Below, in pieces: positions 1-53,238 of a stretch of DNA of 64,000 nucleotides. Both the position numbers and the translations under genes were made by a program. The DNA is from Glandiceps talaboti. Lineage: Eukaryota > Hemichordata > Enteropneusta > Spengelidae. The DNA lies in assembly GCF_964340395.1 (NCBI RefSeq), contig NC_135555.1, forward strand, positions 15,787,246 to 15,851,245, written 5' to 3'. The notes under the pieces are model-generated. The model searched no databases, was not told the DNA's origin, and was given only the letters and a program-made list of their open reading frames with translations. Numbering within the stretch: position 1 is the first letter of the stretch; every line of letters starts with the position of its first letter.

Positions 1-1686
1 GGCTAGTCTGTGACAATAAATGGAGCCAATGTCAAACGTGGAGTTTGCACCATGCAGTTTCTTCATGAGATACTGGGAGATGCTATCAATAACGCAATGT
101 GGGACATTATCTCTGTGTGTTCCAACAAGGAAAATTAATGAACTTGGATTTGGACTGTGCATCAAAATTGAATGCATCCAGAATATCAATCTATCCAGTG
201 CTCCATCTCTATCACCTACGTTTTGGAATTTTCTGAGATCAAATGTCAAGAGGTATATACCATAAGTCGATATTAACACCCGATGTGTATGGTAGTGTAG
301 GTCGCCCCCACTGAAATAAGTCAACATCAGAGTTACAGGAAAAGGCTCTCTGCCCATTTTGTGATACATTGTGACATGCTTTGCAATTTCATCGACGGGC
401 ATTGACTTATTGAAAATCAGTTGTCGATAAAGTTCGACCACGAGCATGATCAGAAATGTTATTATAGCAACAGCTGATTGGATACAGTAATTTGTTGGCA
501 ACTGCCAGCCGATCAAGTGCCCAAAGTATCCACCAACAGCGATCGTTAATGGGAGATAACGAAGACCGGAAAAGTGCCAGATAATGTTCACTCTGGCACC
601 ACATGGTAGGGTTATGCCAGTGATGAAACCAGGCACGAAACCGGCTACCAAAAGTGTTCCTAGATCTCCAATATTGAGGGCATCAACATTCCAGTAGTGT
701 ATTATGGGGAAGAACAGAAGACTAAGTGCCGCCATCAACTTATGCTTAGTTTGCCACGTAGCTGTCCCTATTTGGAAGATAATGTTTGTCATACCACCTA
801 GGATTGCCCCAAACATTACAACTATCTGTTGACACAATGAACACGCGGACATCTGTATACATGCACTGCATGTGTCGTCGACATTTTCATGTGATATCTT
901 GGGAGCTAGCATACCGCAAAACGCAATGACTACTCCATAATGAAGACTTGACTTTGAGAATACTCCATTTATGAACCCAAATGACATGAGAAACAGAATA
1001 AACAAAATATACGTGCTCGGGCTTGCTGCATCACCATTTAGGAAGATTTTGTGACTAACAAGTAATATTGGGTCCATTGTAACCAGGTACATGGAAAGAC
1101 AGCCGGATATTATATATGTCCCGACTGGACCGTATATAAACGTTCCAACAAATAAACCAGTCAGGCAAACCAATGCAGCAATATTTCTGTTGAAGACATT
1201 CCGATCACTAAGGTACATTAACCATACAATTAAACATAAGCTAAATATACCAAGATAATACTTCAGTTCCCAGTTATTTAAGCCTTGCAGTTCTAAATCT
1301 TCCTTAGCTCTGGTATCTGCTATTTGCTTCGCCACATACTTTATTAGTCTATCTTCGTATTTACAGTAGCGTTCTGGGACAACACGAAAGTTTGTGTCCA
1401 CCTCAGCCCGGTGAACGTTTGTATCACATTTATTCGTCTCCTCAAGAGCATCTACACTTTGTCCAGTCAGATTCTTCCATAGAGCTCTTTTACCAGAACC
1501 GGTATCTCCAAGTATTGCGACGTTGATTCTATCAGACTCAATATGTCCCTCTGTTATTGCTTCATGGTAATGGGCTTTTGCGTCATCAATTTCGGAATCA
1601 GACAGATCACTTACGAGAAAAAATCGAGCTCGTTTGAACTTGGCCTTCTCCTTTTGGCCATCTGTCACCATTTGATACATTTTCAT
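1..1686 (-). CDS. Roc-like GTPase with a polytopic membrane region inside the G domain (partial, C-terminus outside window)
   Basis: Read on the minus strand from an ATG at 1686, the frame stays open for 562 codons to the window edge. An in-frame TGA lies just upstream, and a splice acceptor (TATTCACAG) lies between that and the ATG, so the exon probably begins with a short 5'UTR. Residues 56-66 read VAILGDTGSGK, a P-loop (G1). Residues about 85-95 (NVHRAEVD) resemble the switch-I region of metazoan Roc-like GTPases. Residues about 139-421 are strongly hydrophobic, with 8-10 likely transmembrane helices. The G domain then resumes: G3-like SGGD (459-462), a YGIYLLTFDLRKF strand (about 475-487) and G4 VGTHRD (521-526). 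Oddities: the P-loop Ser/Thr is Arg (GKR) and the G3 Asp is missing, so nucleotide hydrolysis may be impaired. The family call rests on motif order seen by eye. The downstream COR or effector part is not in the window. Confidence 0.7.
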   Translation of the reverse strand, partial: MKMYQMVTDGQKEKAKFKRARFFLVSDLSDSEIDDAKAHYHEAITEGHIESDRINVAILGDTGSGKRALWKNLTGQSVDALEETNKCDTNVHRAEVDTNFRVVPERYCKYEDRLIKYVAKQIADTRAKEDLELQGLNNWELKYYLGIFSLCLIVWLMYLSDRNVFNRNIAALVCLTGLFVGTFIYGPVGTYIISGCLSMYLVTMDPILLVSHKIFLNGDAASPSTYILFILFLMSFGFINGVFSKSSLHYGVVIAFCGMLAPKISHENVDDTCSACIQMSACSLCQQIVVMFGAILGGMTNIIFQIGTATWQTKHKLMAALSLLFFPIIHYWNVDALNIGDLGTLLVAGFVPGFITGITLPCGARVNIIWHFSGLRYLPLTIAVGGYFGHLIGWQLPTNYCIQSAVAIITFLIMLVVELYRQLIFNKSMPVDEIAKHVTMYHKMGREPFPVTLMLTYFSGGDLHYHTHRVLISTYGIYLLTFDLRKFQNVGDRDGALDRLIFWMHSILMHSPNPSSLIFLVGTHRDNVPHCVIDSISQYLMKKLHGANSTFDIGSIYCHRLA

Positions 1687-7298: not shown

Positions 7299-8689
7299 CA
7301 ACTTAAAGTCAAAAACCGCTGAACCGATTGCCATGATATTTGGTGGGTCCATTACCTTGGATGTCTAGTTGGGAAATTGTTCAAATCAAAATGATTGCAT
7401 CACAGGTGTGGGATTTGGGTAAAAAATGTGATTTTTGGTCAAAAAACTTAAACTCAGAAACTACTGGGCAGATTGGTGCGAAATTTGGTGGGAACATTCT
7501 TAAGGGGATGTAAAGTAAGATTTGTTCATGACATGATGATTCCATCAGTGATATGCAAATTAGGGCTAAAAATGTTTCTTTTTGGTTGAAAAGCTATAAT
7601 TCCAAAACTACTAAGCAGATTGGGCTGAAATTTAATTGGAATGCATCTAGGGATGTATGGATGAAGAAATATTAAGCATACAATGATTCCATGAGTGATA
7701 TGCAAATTAGGTGTAAAAATGTTCATTTTTGGTCAAAAACTTATATCTCAAAAACTGCTTGGTCACCGAGTCTGAAACTTGGTGAGTTGTTTATGAAAGT
7801 GTTATTCTGCACATTTTCTTCAAAACATTTTGACAAAATTGGCCCTAGCGACCATGACCAAGCCCTTAGCAACAACCAAATGGCAGTATATTTTGGTCAA
7901 ATAACAACATCATCTGGTAGGCAAATGAGTAAACATTCAAAAAATGTATGCAAATACACTAGCAACCATGACCACGCCCATAGCAACAGCCAAACGGTCG
8001 TGGATTTCACAAAGATAACAACAGGGATTGATAGACAATTGAATATACATTCAAAAAATGTATGTAAATTTGCCTAGCAACAAGACCACGCCCATAGCAA
8101 CAGCCAAATAATCACGTATATTGCAAAGATGACAACAGGAATAGAAAGACAAATGAGTAAACATTCGAAAAATGTATGCAAATGTGCCTAGCAACAAGAC
8201 CACGCCCATAGCAACAGCCAAATTATCACATATATTGCAAAGATAACAATGGGGATTAATAGACAATTGAGTAAACATTCAAAAATGTATGTAAATTTGC
8301 CTAGCAACAAGACCACGCCCATAGCAACAGCCAAATAATCACATATATTGCGAAGATAACAACGGGGATTAATAGACAATTGAATAAACATTCAAAAAAT
8401 GTATGTAAATATGCCTAGCAACAAGACCACGCCCATAGCAACAGCCAAATGATCACGTATATTGCAAAGATAATATCAGGAATTCATACAGAAGTGAACA
8501 AAAACATACAAAAAATTGTATGCAAATATATCTAACAACATGACCTTGCTCATAGCAACAGCCAAATGATAGCATATATCGCAAAGATAGCAACATGGTT
8601 GGATAGGCAACTTATTGTTAGCATGGACTACCATATGGATAACATTTTTAAAAACTACAGTTGTGCTACAACGCTATATTGGCGGTATT
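7165..8689 (+). mobile_element. (GT)n-bearing TIR element, full copy with about 7 internal 115-bp repeats
   Basis: Terminal inverted repeats TAGCACAACTGT lie at 7165-7176 and, inverted, at 8657-8668, followed by an AATACCGCCAAT outer end. Next to the left end is GGGATCGCCCGG, then (GT)n at 7219-7295. After it come units containing 'AAACTACTGAGCAGATTGG'-like text and about 7 tandem copies of a roughly 115-bp unit (TAGCAACAAGACCACGCCCA..., 7848-8600). There is no transposase. Relatives in the window lie at 39448-39714, 40988-42304 and 57577-58356. Confidence 0.7.
7848..8600 (+). repeat. Tandem roughly 115-bp repeat, about 7 copies
   Basis: Each unit begins TAGCAACA(A/T)GACCACGCCCA and ends in ACATTCAAAAAATGTATG. 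The first and last copies are the most diverged, the middle ones nearly identical. The array lies inside the element at 7165-8689. Confidence 0.8.
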
Positions 8690-17069: not shown

Positions 17070-18140
17070 TCATTTGTATGGCTTCTCACCAGTATGGATT
17101 CTCATATGTCTTGTCATACTTCTTTTCACACTGAATGTCTTGCCACACACTTCACATTTACATGGCTTCTCACCAGTATGGATTCTGATATGTTCAATTA
17201 AAGAACAAGTATAAGGAAATGTCTTTCCACATATTTCACATTTGTGTGGCTTCTCACCAGTATGGATTCTCCTGTGTTTTGTCATGTGTTCTTTGCGGGT
17301 GAATGGCTTTCCACATATTTCACATTTGTATGGCTTCTCACCAGTATGGATTCTCCTGTGTTTTGTCATGTGTTCTTTGCGGGTGAATGGCTTTCCACAT
17401 ATTTCACATTTGTATGGCTTCTCACCAGTATGGATTCTCACATGTGTAGTCATGTCACCACTATTAGTGAACCTCTTTCCACACACTTCACATTTGTATG
17501 GCCTCTCACCAGTATGGATTCTCATATGTATGGTTATGCCTGTTTTCGAAGTTAATGTCCTGCCACATATTTCACATTTGTATGGCTTCTCACCAGTATG
17601 AATTCTTTTGTGTGGGGCCATGTGTCGTTTGTGAGGGAATGTCATGCCACACACTTCACATTTGTATAGCTTCCCACCAGTGTGGATTCTCATATGTCGA
17701 GTTAAATTTTCTTTACAAGTAACCGTCTTTCCACACACTTCACATTTGTGTGGCTTCTTGCCAGTATGGATTCTCATATGTCGAGTTAAATGCCAGTTAC
17801 AAGTAAATGTCATGCCACACGCTTCACATTTGTATGGTTTCTCACCAGTATGGATTCTCATATGTCGAGTTAAGTGCTGATTACAAGTAAATGTCTTTTC
17901 ACACACTTCACATTTGTAAGGCTTCTCACCAGTATGGATTCTCATATGTATGGTCACGTGTGTTCTCCATTTAAATGTCTTTCCACACACTTCACATCTG
18001 TACGGCCTTTCACCAGTATGGATTCTCATATGTCCAGTTAACACATGCTTACAAGTAAATATCTTGCCACACACTTCACATGTGTGTATCTTCTCACCAG
18101 TATGAATTCTAAACGATGCAGTGATTTGCACATCTCCCAT
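17070..18140 (-). CDS. C2H2 zinc-finger protein A, 12 fingers
   Basis: A 356-residue single-exon array starting [17 protein letters not shown], the leader shared by all five cluster genes. Twelve fingers of form C-x2-C-x12-H-x3-H are joined by TGEKPYK linkers, typical of sequence-specific DNA-binding nuclear proteins. No KRAB, SCAN, BTB or ZAD domain is visible. Fingers 9 and 10 are identical in protein (GKPFTRKEHMTKHRRIH) and nearly identical in DNA (about 17230-17420), a recent 84-bp duplication. The ORF ends after KPYK where Cys TGT has become TGA. The start is the first ATG after a conserved acceptor-like CACAACAG or AACAACAG. The conserved TATA box and noncoding exon at 21030-21141 probably supply the 5' end. 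Confidence 0.85.
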   Translation of the reverse strand: MGDVQITASFRIHTGEKIHTCEVCGKIFTCKHVLTGHMRIHTGERPYRCEVCGKTFKWRTHVTIHMRIHTGEKPYKCEVCEKTFTCNQHLTRHMRIHTGEKPYKCEACGMTFTCNWHLTRHMRIHTGKKPHKCEVCGKTVTCKENLTRHMRIHTGGKLYKCEVCGMTFPHKRHMAPHKRIHTGEKPYKCEICGRTLTSKTGITIHMRIHTGERPYKCEVCGKRFTNSGDMTTHVRIHTGEKPYKCEICGKPFTRKEHMTKHRRIHTGEKPYKCEICGKPFTRKEHMTKHRRIHTGEKPHKCEICGKTFPYTCSLIEHIRIHTGEKPCKCEVCGKTFSVKRSMTRHMRIHTGEKPYK

Positions 18141-22606: not shown

Positions 22607-24145
22607 CTATTGATCAAGTGATGGATTGATTATTTGAACTGATTGGTTGGTACATGAGGCGTACGAGGGTACTGCTGGGTTGATAATGTAGGAAATAGTA
22701 GGTGAGTAATCAAATAAATAGGCAGGTACATAAATAATTTTAGTATTCACTGATTGATTGGTTGATTGATTAATTGATTGATTCACAGATTGATAGATTG
22801 ATTGATTAATTGATTGATTCACAGATTGATTGATTGATTGATTGATATGGATTCTCTTATGTGTAGCCAAGGCACCAGGGTAAGCGAATGTCTTTCCACA
22901 TACTTCGCATTTGTATGGCTTCTCACCAGTATGGATTCTCATATGTGTAGTCAAGACATTATGATAAGCGAATGTCTTGCCACATACTTCACATTTATAT
23001 GGCTTCTCAGAAGTATGCGTTCTCGTGTGCATGGTCAATTGATTTTTCGAAGTGTATGTCTTGCCACACACTTCACACTTGTATGGCTTCTCACCAGTAT
23101 GGATTCTCGTGTGTATGGTAATTTGTTCTTTGCATCTTAACCTCTTCCCACACACTACACATTTGTATGGTTTCGCATCAGTATGGACTTTCATATGTCT
23201 AGTCAAGGCACTATTACAAATGAATCTCCTTCCACACACTTCACATTTGTATGGCCTCTCACCAGTATGGATTCTCATATGTCTGTTGAAAGCACTATTA
23301 CACGTCGACGTCTTTCCACACACTTCACATGTGTATGGCGTCTCACCAGTATGGATTATCATATGACTGGTCAAGACATTATGATAAGCGAATGTCTTGC
23401 CACATACTTCACATTTATATGGCTTCTCAGAAGTATGCGTTCTCGTGTGCATGGTCAATTGACTTTTCCGAGTGAATGTCTTTCCACACACTTCACATTT
23501 GTATGGCTTCTCACCAGTATGGATTCTCATATGTGCAGTCAAGACACTATTATAAATGAATGTCTTGCCACATACTTCACATTTATACAGCTTCTCACCA
23601 GTATGGATTCTCGTGTGTATGGCCACTTGTCCTTTCGAAGTGTATGTCTTGCCACACACTCCGCATTTGTATGGCTCCTCACCAGTATGGAATCTCATGT
23701 GTATGGTAATTTGTTCTTTGCATCTTAACCTCTTCCCACACACTACACATTTGTATGGTTTCGGATCAGTATGGACTTTCATATGGCTAGTCAAGGCACT
23801 CTTACAAATGAATCTCCTTCCACACACTTCACATTTGTATGGCCTCTCACCAGTATGGATTCTCATATGTTTGGTGAAAGCACTATTACAAGTCGATGTC
23901 TTTCCACACACTTCACATGTGTATGGCGTCTCACCAGTATGGATTACCATATGTCTGGTCAAGGCACTATGATAAAAGAATGCCTGTACACACACTTCAC
24001 ATTTATATGGCTTCTCACCAGTATGGAGTCTCATGTGTTTGGTCACGGTTCCTTTCTGCGTGAATGTCTTTCCACATACTTCACACGCGTGTATCTTCTC
24101 ACCAGTATGACTTCTAAACGCTGCAGTGATTTGCACATCTGCCAT
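22607..24145 (-). CDS. C2H2 zinc-finger protein B, 15 fingers, NQSI-repeat tail
   Basis: A 512-residue protein starting [17 protein letters not shown] at ATG 24145. The frame extends a few codons upstream to a GTG, which I reject as a start. Fifteen C2H2 fingers with TGEKPYK-type linkers fill most of the protein. Fingers 2-6 and 9-13 are a near-repeat of the same five-finger block (YHxxLTxHM, STCNSAF, RRFICx[20 protein letters not shown]), so the array grew by block duplication. The last finger runs into about 80 residues beginning [12 protein letters not shown], translated from a TTGA/CAAT microsatellite (22741-22847), then a Tyr/Pro/Ser-rich end. The conserved promoter and exon 1 lie at 26258-26376. 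Confidence 0.85.
22741..22847 (+). repeat. TTGA microsatellite, coding for the gene B tail
   Basis: Imperfect GATT/TTGA units. Read on the minus strand, 12 nt give the four-residue repeat NQSI. Confidence 0.9.
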
Positions 24146-26257
24146 GGTATTGCCTGTTGTGTTCACAGTTCAAATCTCTTGATATTTATATGTTGCTCTC
24201 CACGTCCGTTCCTCTTTAATCATTTAGCTAAAAAGATGAAAGTATACAGAAAGGTTAAGGCGATGAAAACTAATTGTGTGCTCCGATTATATGAGGAAAT
24301 GGAGTAGGTTGGGATGTGTACAAACATCACTGGGGAAAGGAGAGGTGCGTGGGGGACAAGAAGATGAAGAATTGTAAATTTTTAAATAATGCTCCTGGTC
24401 GGCAGCTTAAACTAGAGTCGGTTGGATTGTCGGAAACAAATACTTTTTTGCCTAATGAATTTCACGAAGTGTATGTCTTCAGCTGCAGATGCATATGAAG
24501 CTATCCAAATATTGATAATAAGTAATTTTATGTGCATACATATATTACTATGTCCATTGTTAAAGTTATGACCTTTATAATTAAAAAAATCAAATGAAAA
24601 TCCTTCCTTCCATGATATACCTATAATTTTCAACATATGAAATATCTATTTTGGGACACATATAGTCATACACAAATATAGTGAAAAAAAGTTTAAACTA
24701 AGCAATTTGAATTGGGGATAGACACTTGAATGTAGTTTCTATGTACTAACGTTTTAGAGTGATATGGTAAATCATGATTTTGCACTACTTAATATGAATG
24801 CTTTTGAGTAAGAAGTTATGTGCGCACCAGAAATAATACATACATTTGTCTGTTTATCTGGTATACATACTGCATTATATATAGACATGATCTAGAAGAT
24901 ATTAGCTTGCATGTGATTGTAAATATTTAGACACTTGAATAGAGTATATGTATTGAAGTTCTTGAGTTATGAAGTAATAATACAACGATTTTTACTACAA
25001 ATATGACTGCTTCTGTATTTCAATATTACTTGAAAACATTATTTAAAAGAAATTGACATGTAAACATTACAGTGTGTCTGTAATAGTCAGGTAGGAATTG
25101 GCTTGGTTTTGATAATTCAAAGTTCAAGCTCTCAAAATATAGTTTGCACCTGATAATATGGGTTAGACACTTGAATGGCGTCTCTAAGTATTATAAGTCT
25201 TGAGTTCTGCAGAAAATAATGGTTTTTAACTGCAAATATGGCTGTCATTCAGTAAAATTTAAAGTGATATAAGCACCACAAAGTCTCCGTAGAAGACGCA
25301 TCCCTCATTGTGTCTGTGATAGGCAGGAATTAGCTTGATTTTGATGATTGACCCTGAAGGTCAAGGTCAACGTCTGAAAAGTTAGCTTTTAATGGAGTGT
25401 CTCTGTATTACAGTTTTTAACTCAACAAATATTGCAAAAAATACAAACATGGTTGGCATTCTGTCAAATTTGCATATGTCAAAAATCGAATTGATTTGCA
25501 TATTCCCCATATCATATGTCACTATTATGCCACATTTGTATGAAATCGGATATTGCATGTTTGAGAAGTGATGTATTATAAACGGACCGACGAACAGAGC
25601 CCGCCGCAATAGACCATGCGTTCGGGGGCATAGTCCTATCCACCCTTACAGGAACTCTAACAACATTAAAATCTATCACATGTTTACAAAGCAAATGCCT
25701 TCCATAGGGGCAACGGCTTCGGAGTTTTGTTCCTACACCTTTTATAAAAATGCAAAATTCTTACATATTATAAATGAAGTACCATAAATAGATAAATCAA
25801 TTATACCAAACAAACAAACAAACAAACAAACAAACAAACAATCAATCAGAATAACCTTTCCTTGCAAAATGTGAAAGGCTGAGAGACGTCTGTCGTACCA
25901 ACATTAATCTGCATCATGTTTCAATAAGAAATTTATCATCAAGAAATTGTCATCAATATTTCTGCATGTACGAATGTAACACTACAGTCAGTCCTGATAG
26001 AATGTTGAACTTATGAAATGAGTAAGTTATCAAATGAAAAACAAATGTCGTTGTGACAAATCTAATTCAACTCAGCATATAATCTGCCCACTTATCGTTA
26101 ATCGGATAGATAGTCTACTTTAGTCAGGGATAGACAAGTGAAAGATCGTAATTACTCACTGTTACTCTTGTCAGGAGAAGTATTCTTTGAAGAATTAACG
26201 GTGTGATCGATTTGGGTTGTCCAGCAGTGTTAATAAAAGATGTCATTAAAACTTTAC
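24146..26257 (-). other. Probable 5' intron of zinc-finger gene B
   Basis: Contains about four diverged copies of a roughly 230-bp unit (about 24711, 24935, 25160 and 25385). The recurring text is TTAGACACTTGAAT...TTTTTAACT/ACT...AAATATGGCTG. An AAAC run lies at about 25808-25842. No gene is seen. Confidence 0.5.
24700..25480 (+). repeat. Diverged tandem repeat, roughly 230 bp, about 4 copies
   Basis: Copies share GACACTTGAATG(T/G)xGTxTCT(A/C)xGTA and a later AAATATG(A/G)CTG(C/T) segment. Similarity is partial and boundaries are approximate. Confidence 0.4.
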
Positions 26258-32547: not shown

Positions 32548-33786
32548 TCATTTGCATGGCTTCTCACTACTATGGATTCTCGTGTGTATGATCATTTGTC
32601 CTTTCTGAGTGAATGTCTTGCCACACACTTCACATATGTATGGCTTCTCACCAGTATGGATTCTGATATGTTCAGTTAAAAAACTACTACAAGTAAATGT
32701 CTTTCCACATATTTCACATTTGTACGGCTTCTCACCGGTATGGATTCTCTTGTGTTTTGTCATGAGTCCTTTGCGATTGAATGCCTTTCCACATATTTCA
32801 CATTTATGTGGCTTCTCACTGGTATGGATTTGCACATGTACAGTCAGGGCGCTATTACAAGTAAATGTCGTTCCACATATTTCACATTTGTATGGCTTAT
32901 TACCAGTATGGATTCTCGTGTGTATTGTCATGTCCCCGCTCTGAGCGAATGCCTTCCCACATATTTCACATTTGTATGGCTTCTCACCAGTATGGATTCT
33001 CACATGTCCAGTCAAGGCACTATTACAAATGAATCTCTTTCCACACACTTCACATTTATATGGCTTCTTACCAGTATGGGTTCTCATATGTGTGGTTATG
33101 TCTATTTTCCAAGTAAACGCCTTGCTACATATTTCACATTTGTATGGCTTCTCACCAGTATGGATTCTCATATGCCCAGTCAAAGTACTATTACAACTGA
33201 ATGATTTTCCACACACTTCACATTTGTATGGCTTCTCACCAGTATGGCTTCTCGTGTGTATGGTCACTGATTCTTTATGAATGAATGTCATGCCACATAT
33301 TTCACATTTGTACAGCTTCTCACCACTATGAATTCTCGTGTGTCTCTTCATGTGCCCATTCTGAGTGAATGTTTTTCCACATATTTCACATTTGTATGGC
33401 TTCTCACCAGTATGGATTCTCATATGCCCGGTCATGTCTCCTTTCCGAGTAAATGTCTTTCCACACACTTTACATGTGTGTGGTTTCTCACCAGTATGGA
33501 TTCTCATATGCCCAGTCATGTCTCCCTTCTGAGCACATGTCTTTCCACACACTTTACATTTGTACGGCTTCTCACCACTGTGGATTCTCATGTGTACGAC
33601 CATGTGTCCTTTCTTAGAGAATTTCTTGCCACACAGTTCACATCTGTACGGCTTCTCACCAGTATGGACTCTCATGTGTATGGTCATGTCTCCTTTCTGA
33701 GTGAATGTCTTGCCACATACTCCACATGTGTGTATCTTCTCACCAGTATGAATTCTAAACGCTGCAGTGATTTGCACATCTGCCAT
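32548..33786 (-). CDS. C2H2 zinc-finger protein C, 14 fingers
   Basis: A 412-residue protein starting [17 protein letters not shown] at ATG 33786 (the upstream in-frame GTG is rejected). It has fourteen C2H2 fingers with TGEKPYK linkers and no effector domain. Adjacent fingers 3 and 4 are close copies (KGDMTGHMRIH). The array stops prematurely relative to its ancestor, since finger remnants continue for about 380 bp beyond the stop, as in gene A. It shares its 3' flank with gene A and is more distant from the NQSI-tailed genes. Promoter and exon 1 lie at 38079-38182. Confidence 0.85.
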   Translation of the reverse strand: MADVQITAAFRIHTGEKIHTCGVCGKTFTQKGDMTIHMRVHTGEKPYRCELCGKKFSKKGHMVVHMRIHSGEKPYKCKVCGKTCAQKGDMTGHMRIHTGEKPHTCKVCGKTFTRKGDMTGHMRIHTGEKPYKCEICGKTFTQNGHMKRHTRIHSGEKLYKCEICGMTFIHKESVTIHTRSHTGEKPYKCEVCGKSFSCNSTLTGHMRIHTGEKPYKCEICSKAFTWKIDITTHMRTHTGKKPYKCEVCGKRFICNSALTGHVRIHTGEKPYKCEICGKAFAQSGDMTIHTRIHTGNKPYKCEICGTTFTCNSALTVHVQIHTSEKPHKCEICGKAFNRKGLMTKHKRIHTGEKPYKCEICGKTFTCSSFLTEHIRIHTGEKPYICEVCGKTFTQKGQMIIHTRIHSSEKPCK

Positions 33787-35235
33787 AGTATTATTTGGTG
33801 TGTTCACAGTTCAAATATCGTGATATCTATATATTGAATATACACCATGTCGTCCGCTCTCCACGTCCATTTATCTTCAATCATTTAACTGCAAAGATGA
33901 AAGTATACTGAAATGTTAAGGCGATAACATGAATATGTACAGGCATCACTGGGGGAAAGAAACAGGGGTGCATGAAAGAACGAAAGATGAAGAATTGTAA
34001 ATGTTTAAAAAATGCTTCTGATCGGCAGCTTGAACTACAGTACGTAATGTTGTCGGAAACACACATTTAATTTTATTTTATTTGTGTCTAGCGAATTTTA
34101 CGAAGTGTGTGTCTTCAGCTGCAGATGCATATGACGCTATCCAAATATTGTCAATGAGTAATTTGTATGCCAATACATGTATTAGTATGTTTAATGTTAA
34201 AGTTATGACCTATACTAAAAAGCGTTTTTTTCCATGAGATAAATATAATTTTTAACATACAAAATGTATGAAAAATCTATTTTGGTACACTTATAGTCAT
34301 ACACAAATATAGCACAAAAGGTGATGTAGCATTAGCCTATCCACTACCCTGTTAAGATTCATCATTTGCTTAAATTTGATGACATGCACAAGTATCCGTT
34401 ACTATGAACTCATACAGACTAGTAGACATTTTGTAACTTCGATCAGCACTTTAAAAATTTAACATGATAAAATGCCAAAAGAACTAATCTCGATGATGTT
34501 GACCAAGGTATATCGGAATCATAGATTTTCGTACAATACAAAATACCAATTCAGAATGAATGTCATCCTTATCAAAATACAATTGAGGTATGCTTTGCCG
34601 ATGTTAAGTATCCTCAATATGAATAAACATGAACTCATAAATACTCAAGTTTGAAAGTTGTGTGATCACAGTATGGGCATACCAGACAATCATATAATTG
34701 AAATGTGAAAAAGCAACTTGTGTGCTATATGTCAATGACGTCACAGGTGTTGTCAGGTCAATGCCAACATAGTTCAATTAAACTAATTCTAATCTCATTT
34801 TAATAATATATGATCAAACTATTTTCAACTTTAGCACACAAATAAGCACTGTTATTCTCTTAAGTCTGCTATTCAACGTTTATCTTCAAGTTACAGTAAT
34901 GAGCCAGATGTTGCAGTCATTATGAAGGATTAAGAATAACTTCAGATCCACCAACACAACTGTCTTGAATTAAGCCACACGTCATCATTGAAACGTTATA
35001 GGCGTCTCAGTTGTTTACCCATGTCTAAACTTTGACATAGCTGGCCTGTTAACGACCTTTACTGGTTTAGTACGAACATTAACATTACTCGGATAAGTAA
35101 CTTGATCACAATAAGTAGGTTGGCAGACATCCCTTGCAATTCAGTACATACGACATTCGATAATACTACACAAGAAATATAACTGTCACGACACAAATTC
35201 TGTTCCTGTTTCGATTCGGATCGAATTCAGTTCTC

Positions 35236-40987: not shown

Positions 40988-42180
40988 AATACCGCCAATG
41001 GCGTTGTAGCCCAACTGTACATTTAAAAAAAAATATTTATCCATATGCTAGTCCATGCTAACAATAGGTGTTCATTTGCTGAATAACTATCCAGTTGCCT
41101 ATCAAACCATGTTGCTATCTTTACAATAAATGCTATCATTTGGCTGTTTTCTATGGGCGTGGTCATGTTGTTAGATACATTTGCATACATTTGTATATGT
41201 TTTTGATCCCTTGTGTATGAATTCCTGATATTGTCTTTGCAATATGATCATTTGGCTGTTGCTTTGGGCATGGTCTTGTTGCTAGGCAAATTTACATACA
41301 TTTTTTGAATGTTTATTCATTTGTCTTTCTATTCCTGTTGTTATCTTTGCAATATACATGATTATTTGGCTGTTGTTATGGGCATGGTATTGTTGCTAGG
41401 CAAATTTACAAACATTTTTGAATGTGTATCCAATTGTCTATTAAACCTGTTGTTATCTTTGTGAAATACACCACCGTTTGGCTGTTGCTATGGGCGTAGT
41501 CATGGTTCCTAGGGTATTTGCATACATTTTTTGAATGTTTACTCACTTGCCTACCAGATGATGTTGTTATTTGACCAAAAATACTGCCATTTGGTTGTTG
41601 CTAAAGGGCGTGGTCATGGTCGCTAGGGCCAATTTTGTCAAAATGTTTTGAAGAAAATCTGCAGAATAACAGTTTCAGAAACAGCTCGCCAAGTTTCAGA
41701 CTCATTGACCAAGCACTTTTTGGGATATAAGTTTTTGACCAAAAATGAACATTCTTACACCTAATTTGCATATCACTCATGGAATCATTGTATGCTTAAT
41801 ATTTCTTCATCCATACATCCCTAGATACATTCCCATTAAATTTCAGCCCAATCTGCTCAGTAGTTTTGGAATTATAGATTTTTAACCAAAAAGACACATT
41901 TTTAGCCCTAATTTGCATATCACTGAGGGAATCATTATGTCATGAACAAATCTTACTTTACACCCCCTTAAGAATGTTCCCACCAAATTTCGCACCAATC
42001 TGCCCAGTAGTTTCTGAGTTTAAGTTTTTTGACCAAAAATCACATTTTTTTTACCCAAATCACACACCTGTGATGCGATCATTTTGATTTGAACAATTTC
42101 CCAACTAGACACCCAATGTAATGGACCCACCAAATATCATGGCAATCGGTTCAGCGGTTTTTGACTTTAAGTTGTTTACA

Positions 42181-44100: not shown

Positions 44101-44125
44101 ATTGATTAATTAATTAATTGGTTGG

Positions 44126-44178
<53 letters not shown>

Positions 44179-44195
44179 CGATCGATCGATCGATA
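44101..44195 (+). repeat. TTGA/TCGA microsatellite, coding for the gene D tail
   Basis: Gives [12 protein letters not shown] on the minus strand. Confidence 0.9.
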
Positions 44196-45151
44196 TGGAT
44201 TCCTTTATGTTTAGTCAAGACTCTGTGATAAATGAATATTTTTCCACATACTTCACATTTATATGGCTTCTCAGAAGTATGCGTTATCGTGTGTATGGTC
44301 AATTGACATTTCTGAGTGAATATCTTTCCACACACTTCACATTTGTGTGGCTTCTTGCCAGTATGGATTCTCATATGTCCAATTAAGGCACTAGGGTCAA
44401 TGAATGTCTTTCCACACACTTGACATTTGTATGGCTTCTCACCAGTATGGATTCTCCTGTGTATGGTCATTTGTCCTTTCTGAGTGAATGATTTTCCACA
44501 CACTTCACATTTGTGTGGCTTCTTGCCAGTATGGATTCTCATATGTCCCGTTAAAGAACTATTAACAGTAAATGTCTTTCCACATATTTCACATTTGTAT
44601 GGCTTCTCACCTGTGTGAACTCTCAGATGTGCAGTTAAGGCACCATTACCAGTGTATCTCTTTCCGCACACTTCACATTTGTATGGCTTCTCACCAGTAT
44701 GGGTTCTCGTGTGTTTTGTCATGTGTGCTTTCATAGTGAATGATTTTCCACACACTTCACATTTGTATGGCTTATTGCCAGTATGGATTCTCATATGTCC
44801 CGTTAAAGAACAAGTTAATGTCTTTCCACATATTTCACATTTGTATTGCTTCTCACCAGTATGGATTCTCATATGTCTAATTAAGGCACTGGGGTCAGTG
44901 AATGTCTTTCCACACACTTGACATTTGTATGGCTTCTTGCCAGTATGGATTCTTCTGTGTAAGGTCACGTGTCCTTTCTGAGTGAATGGTTTTCCACACA
45001 CTTCACATTTATATGGCTTTTCACCAGTATGGATTCTCGTGTGTTTTGTCAGGTGTCCTTTCCGAGTGAATGTCTTGCCACACACTTCACATGTGTGTAT
45101 CTTCTCACCAGTATGAATTCTGAACGTTGCAGTGATTTGCGCATCTCCCAT
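44114..45151 (-). CDS. C2H2 zinc-finger protein D, 11 fingers, NQSI tail
   Basis: A 345-residue protein starting [17 protein letters not shown]. Ten normal C2H2 fingers with TGEKPYK/TGKKPHK linkers, plus finger 4 ([15 protein letters not shown]), which lacks two residues between the Cys pair and the His pair (x10 instead of x12). The same short finger occurs in gene E, so the deletion predates their duplication. That finger may bind zinc or DNA poorly. The last finger runs into [16 protein letters not shown], encoded by a TTGA microsatellite (44101-44195), and ends in NQPTN. The start follows the conserved CACAACAGGCAATA acceptor context. Promoter and exon 1 lie at 49239-49355. Confidence 0.85.

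Positions 45152-52233: not shown

Positions 52234-53238
<1,005 letters not shown>

Follow-up and report, generated by a model that had tools for sequence, protein, structure and literature searches.

Roco proteins, which include LRRK1/2, DAPK1, MFHAS1 and the bacterial and archaeal Roco proteins, carry a Roc GTPase domain followed by COR, their dimerisation domain. G proteins normally function alongside the receptors and channels of the membrane and are not built around them, and in FeoB, the mitofusins and atlastin, where a G protein and membrane helices share one chain, the G domain is contiguous and the membrane part lies outside it. Here we describe a gene at the edge of a 64,000-nucleotide stretch of the Glandiceps talaboti genome (NC_135555.1, positions 15,787,246 to 15,851,245; hereafter the window), in which a Roc domain is predicted to be split by a polytopic membrane cassette. 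The family to which it belongs, called split-Roc below, shares the order of Roc then COR with the Roco proteins, and its sequence and predicted fold match those of LRRK2, LRRK1, Chlorobium tepidum Roco and Methanosarcina barkeri Roco2. In contrast to them, its Roc is non-contiguous, with a membrane cassette of about 300 residues in the beta2-beta3 hairpin; in contrast to FeoB, mitofusins and atlastin, its membrane part is inside the G domain.

Membrane helices inside a P-loop NTPase domain have a precedent outside the GTPases, namely the KAP P-loop NTPases (Kidins220/ARMS). This group was reportedly defined by Aravind et al. in 2004, and to our knowledge its members are not Ras/Roc GTPases and have no COR. 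Kidins220 is described, in the available part of the source, as having four membrane segments inside its KAP-NTPase domain (PMC4632323), whereas split-Roc proteins have about ten and their domain matches Roc/Rab. No KAP domain was matched in the window part of the gene at E ≤ 10 or in the full-length protein at E ≤ 1. A review of the Roco family distinguishes three groups by domain topology, and the accessible part of its text names no membrane helices ("transmembrane" occurs 0 times; PMC6337361). A literature search, with most subscription journals outside its coverage, returned among the matches listed no title or abstract opening that mentions membrane helices splitting a G domain. The view of the first-pass annotation that no family with this layout has been described thus holds for GTPases as far as these matches go, while the KAP proteins anticipate the general trick.

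The Split-Roc Family in the Genome

The minus-strand frame 1686..1 of the window is stop-free through all 562 codons, compared with a longest run of 178 codons in the same frame among 2,000 base shuffles of the 1,686 nucleotides. It is the beginning of a 958-codon single-frame open reading frame (ORF; G000:C8:15786058-15788931, copy L001), the remainder of which (G000:C8:15786058-15787245) lies beyond the window edge; COR-A was found at residues 647-783 (Pfam E 1.3e-9, 38.5 bits against a cut-off of 35.3). The GDTGSGK, YLLTFDL and THRD motifs and the switch-II-like segment (residues ~455-468) that had been read from this uninterrupted frame were all located (Table 1). The hydrophobic part is present as proposed, although it measures about 290 residues instead of about 280, and 390 residues separate the G1 Lys from the G3 position. 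Only about 50 residues precede the split-Roc G domain.

Searching the 590-Mb assembly (47 contigs) gave at least 24 matches with the window protein and at least 50 with the paralogue L014, such counts being lower bounds for a large family. From these, 23 split-Roc loci were recognised, distributed over 10 contigs (L001-L024, L007 and L021 forming one locus); the remaining L014 matches comprise COR-like ORFs, extra pieces of split-Roc loci and a single LRR-Roc ORF (L028). Four of the 23 loci were left out before counting, three broken-looking (L007/L021, L023 and L024) and one partly reading N. The other 19, chosen for complete ORFs of 846-988 amino acids (L005 being included despite its early-diverging C terminus), were aligned, and all of them follow the order G1, switch I, hydrophobic cassette of about 300 residues, G3, G4, COR. 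Pfam Roc was matched at E ≤ 1 in 18 members (best 6.6e-21) and COR-A in all 19, COR-B in only two. The Pfam scan of L001 listed no LRR or kinase match; for the other members, 25 of 35 families were listed. The split-Roc proteins are best classed as a new, integral-membrane kind of Roco protein.

Four insert-free Roc-COR genes of the same genome (L034, L053, L038 and L041), with LRR-like stretches recognised by eye, also lie in single open frames, of 789-1099 amino acids, and long single-frame Roco ORFs are therefore not peculiar to the split family. Among the broken-looking copies, L023 (G000:C7:12427736-12430572) has a TAG within the match, and its middle piece (12429171-12429824) is inverted between two plus-strand pieces.

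Position of the Insert

From the P-loop Lys to the G3 position, the 19 ORFs span 367-427 residues, so that none has the contiguous Roc of Roco proteins. The yardstick was a set of 14 ORFs, those of 30 fetched Roc-matching loci with end-to-end coverage of the Roc profile, which are contiguous by selection and several of which are Ras-like, not Roc; in 13 of them G1 and G3 are 37-53 residues apart, and in the 14th (L029) the wrong DxxG was matched. The family profile matched LRRK2 Roc at E 4.6e-22 in two stretches, profile positions 32-85, ending just past the switch-I T-V-G-I-D, and 451-551, the second beginning 8 LRRK2 residues after the first. Judged from this alignment, the insert of about 300 residues is located in the beta2-beta3 (interswitch) hairpin of Roc, between switch I and switch II.

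Predicted Fold and Membrane Topology

In the AlphaFold model of the window gene, one G domain is rebuilt across the insert, 161 of 162 Rab6 residues being aligned at 2.6 A, and the model was aligned with LRRK1/2 and C. tepidum Roco through residue 958. The first-pass annotation had named a failure of the two halves to pair as the outcome that would speak against one G domain split by a multi-pass cassette; the prediction supports a single Ras/Roc fold formed by both, and the layout recurs throughout the aligned members.

The proposed eight to ten helices agree with the mean hydropathy of the alignment, which has nine peaks and a shoulder, and with both AlphaFold models, where ten membrane helices were read from 12 helix elements in each cassette after merging or disregarding the shortest. 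When single sequences were scanned with a Kyte-Doolittle threshold, only 5-8 segments were called along each protein. The cassette loops have a net positive-inside bias in charge, itself model-dependent. Placement of both G half-domains on one membrane face, as had been suggested, would fit this bias and the model-based count of ten helices. The helix pattern also raised the possibility of an internal 5+5 repeat, which found no support in a profile comparison of the two halves (probability 0.2%).

Selection and Origin

The ratio of non-synonymous to synonymous substitution rates (dN/dS) is 0.15-0.36 in the cassette and 0.08-0.38 in other regions where computable, indicating purifying selection on the cassette. 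Of seven pairs, three have a cassette clearly more divergent than COR, one has a slightly more divergent cassette, and three show about equal divergence. The cassette tree contains the clades L001-L004, L005/L006, L008-L010, L011/L015, L012/L014 and L013/L020, leaving L016, L018, L019 and L022 unresolved, and its main clades are shared with the G3-to-COR tree. In the latter, one branch separates the 19 split members from four non-split Roc-COR ORFs with support of 92/99, which falls short of the starred level of the tree tool, the non-split branches being long. The most economical explanation, although not proven, is that the cassette was inserted once and the gene then duplicated.

The L062 cassette was used to look through the genome for a cassette gene standing alone: 11 of 12 matches lay in split-Roc loci and the last had E 0.258, but as this search met no more than 11 of the 23 split-Roc loci, it might overlook a free-standing gene that is only distantly related. 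No prokaryotic or viral relative was confirmed by searches that find close relatives, and for this reason the negative says little.

Possible Function and Alternative Explanations

From the computed layout, its conservation in 19 ORFs, the constraint on the cassette and the predicted rebuilding of the G domain, we infer a function for the family. Probably, these proteins are integral-membrane Roco proteins in which a bundle of about ten helices, grafted into the interswitch hairpin, is coupled to the nucleotide state and read out by COR, with receptor-type input favoured. Both strands of the hairpin would be tied physically to the bundle, and a change in the bundle upon binding of a ligand, a lipid or another stimulus would shift the interswitch and switches I and II, and in this way set a nucleotide state that COR dimers would read out. 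Control could equally run the other way, with the nucleotide state gating the bundle. A receptor-type role, with a variable membrane sensor and a more constant G-protein output, is favoured by the number of copies and by cassettes that diverge faster than COR in some pairs. We know of no such insert in the interswitch of Arf, and the likeness of Arf/Arl/Sar proteins to the split family is mechanistic only. In their interswitch toggle, the strand bearing the DxxG Asp moves by two residues between nucleotide states, as described in the available part of the source (PMC3012027).

Judged by this arrangement, a G protein may have been fused with its membrane receptor or channel into a single molecule. 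More tentatively, and rather doubtfully, the G protein might be its own receptor, channel or transporter, a new fold of about ten helices being opened, closed or read by the GTP cycle without a separate receptor or effector, in a receptor-like repertoire that includes pseudo-GTPase partners. If the interswitch hairpin of a G domain can accommodate a polytopic insert, it would be a possible mechanical port, and the family would offer a direct test of how membranes and nucleotide state are coupled in Roco proteins, the Parkinson's protein LRRK2 among them.

Several observations weigh against the coupled-bundle reading. A match to the G fold is no proof that the nucleotide cycle moves the cassette. 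Confidence in the full-length model, based on 12 sequences, is moderate, with a predicted local distance difference test score (pLDDT) of 71 and a predicted template modelling score (pTM) of 0.62, and it falls low in parts of the cassette. The fifth helix, with only 11 residues in either model, possibly fails to span the membrane, which leaves the even helix count insecure; at each of two of the four inner loops, Lys or Arg occurs in only 4 of 19 members; and the juxtamembrane helices had no excess amphipathicity when tested. In some pairs the cassette dN/dS exceeds that of COR (0.33 against 0.22, 0.36 against 0.19), and in the four pairs other than the clearly divergent three, cassette and COR identities are 0.71/0.72, 0.83/0.80, 0.48/0.48 and 0.61/0.67. 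Only L001 among the members has no match to Roc at E ≤ 1, and its window part alone scores E 0.076 and 13.7 bits, below the cut-off of 27. This copy also has GKR in place of the P-loop Ser/Thr, no switch-I Thr and YFSG for DxxG; with these losses its G domain is degenerate, though the architecture is real, and it is probably a pseudo-GTPase that does not hydrolyse GTP.

The main rival, which we regard as unlikely, sees in the cassette no more than an elaborate anchor, keeping a Roco scaffold at one membrane with no sensing or transport. The cassette was compared with Pfam, NCBIfam, PDB sequences and PDB folds, and no family or solved fold matched convincingly; the NCBIfam matches to nqrD (2.9e-4) and CydD (8.9e-4), each in one of 19 members, were treated as probable chance among hydrophobic helices. 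The channel- or transporter-like core envisaged at first thus found no convincing backing, and the lack of a convincing channel, receptor or transporter relative, together with a mean column identity of 27%, suits an anchor. Yet about ten helices far exceed what an anchor needs, the interswitch hairpin is an odd place for a passive one, the cassette is under purifying selection in the range of its flanks, and one cassette Gly, G241, is invariant in 19/19. With no convincing known fold, a structure of the cassette would be informative by itself.

That the whole family is a pseudo-GTPase scaffold, its split G domain a structural remnant that does not cycle, is less probable still. Switch-I Thr is absent throughout the clade L001-L004 and DxxG in three of these four, and the G4 Asp is missing in L005, L006 and L010, which speaks for such a scaffold. 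However, GK[ST] is kept in 18/19 ORFs, switch-I Thr in 15/19, DxxG in 16/19 and TH[RK]D in 16/19, and all four motifs occur together in 12/19 (L009 and L014 among them). The identification as a GTPase may stand for the motif-complete members and probably does not for the window copy; L001 and its three sisters (L002-L004), having lost catalytic motifs, probably serve the intact ones as pseudo-GTPase partners or regulate them. Finally, it is scarcely credible that the hydrophobic stretch is an artefact (an intron, chimera or assembly join) and that Roc is ordinary in the mature protein: although three of the 23 loci appear damaged, among them one whose middle piece is inverted, the family is spread over 10 contigs, the 19 loci (picked for complete ORFs) are open across the cassette, cassette dN/dS is well below 1, and the two trees share their main clades.

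Features of the Window Gene and Other Observations

Table 1. Parts of the split-Roc gene in the window (residues numbered from the start of the ORF).
Feature	Window position	Strand	Basis
First 562 codons of the 958-codon ORF, degenerate split-Roc member	1..1686	-	open frame
G1/P-loop GDTGSGKR, residues 60-67 (GDTGSGK, 60-66); Arg in place of Ser/Thr after GK	1486..1509	-	
Switch I and beta2, residues 78-96, with strand beta2 predicted at residues 91-96; T-x-G-I/V motif lacks its Thr	1399..1455	-	
Predicted juxtamembrane helix 1, residues 110-133, linking beta2 to first membrane helix	1288..1359	-	AlphaFold
Membrane cassette, residues 137-425, about ten helices	412..1278	-	hydropathy, dN/dS, AlphaFold
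Cassette helix cores 1-5, residues 141-159, 168-180, 192-211, 225-244, 249-260			
Cassette helix cores 6-10, residues 287-307, 316-333, 343-360, 376-391, 404-421			
Predicted juxtamembrane helix 2, residues 431-444, linking last membrane helix to beta3	355..396	-	AlphaFold
Strand beta3 and G3/switch II, residues 451-462; YFSG here, DFAG or DFGG in most paralogues	301..336	-	
Strand beta4, predicted residues 477-483; YLLTFDL, 478-484	238..258	-	
G4 GTHRD, residues 522-526	109..123	-	

Elsewhere in the genome, G000:C4:15.6-16.7 Mb and C12:16.4-17.4 Mb hold fifteen ORFs of about 430-580 amino acids that are weakly similar to the COR part of the family. No Roc-search match was listed for them (150 of 281 candidates scored), and they are possibly another expanded COR-containing family.

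The window also contains five minus-strand C2H2 zinc-finger ORFs (17070-18140, 22607-24166, 32548-33807, 44114-45151 and 52234-53223) of 329-519 amino acids, which, with their 84-bp finger repeats and similar starts, form a tandem gene cluster. At 7422-8610 and 41110-42049, adjacent tandem repeats of ~147 bp and ~112-114 bp look alike by eye in opposite orientation, and the two pairs are possibly copies of one mobile element.
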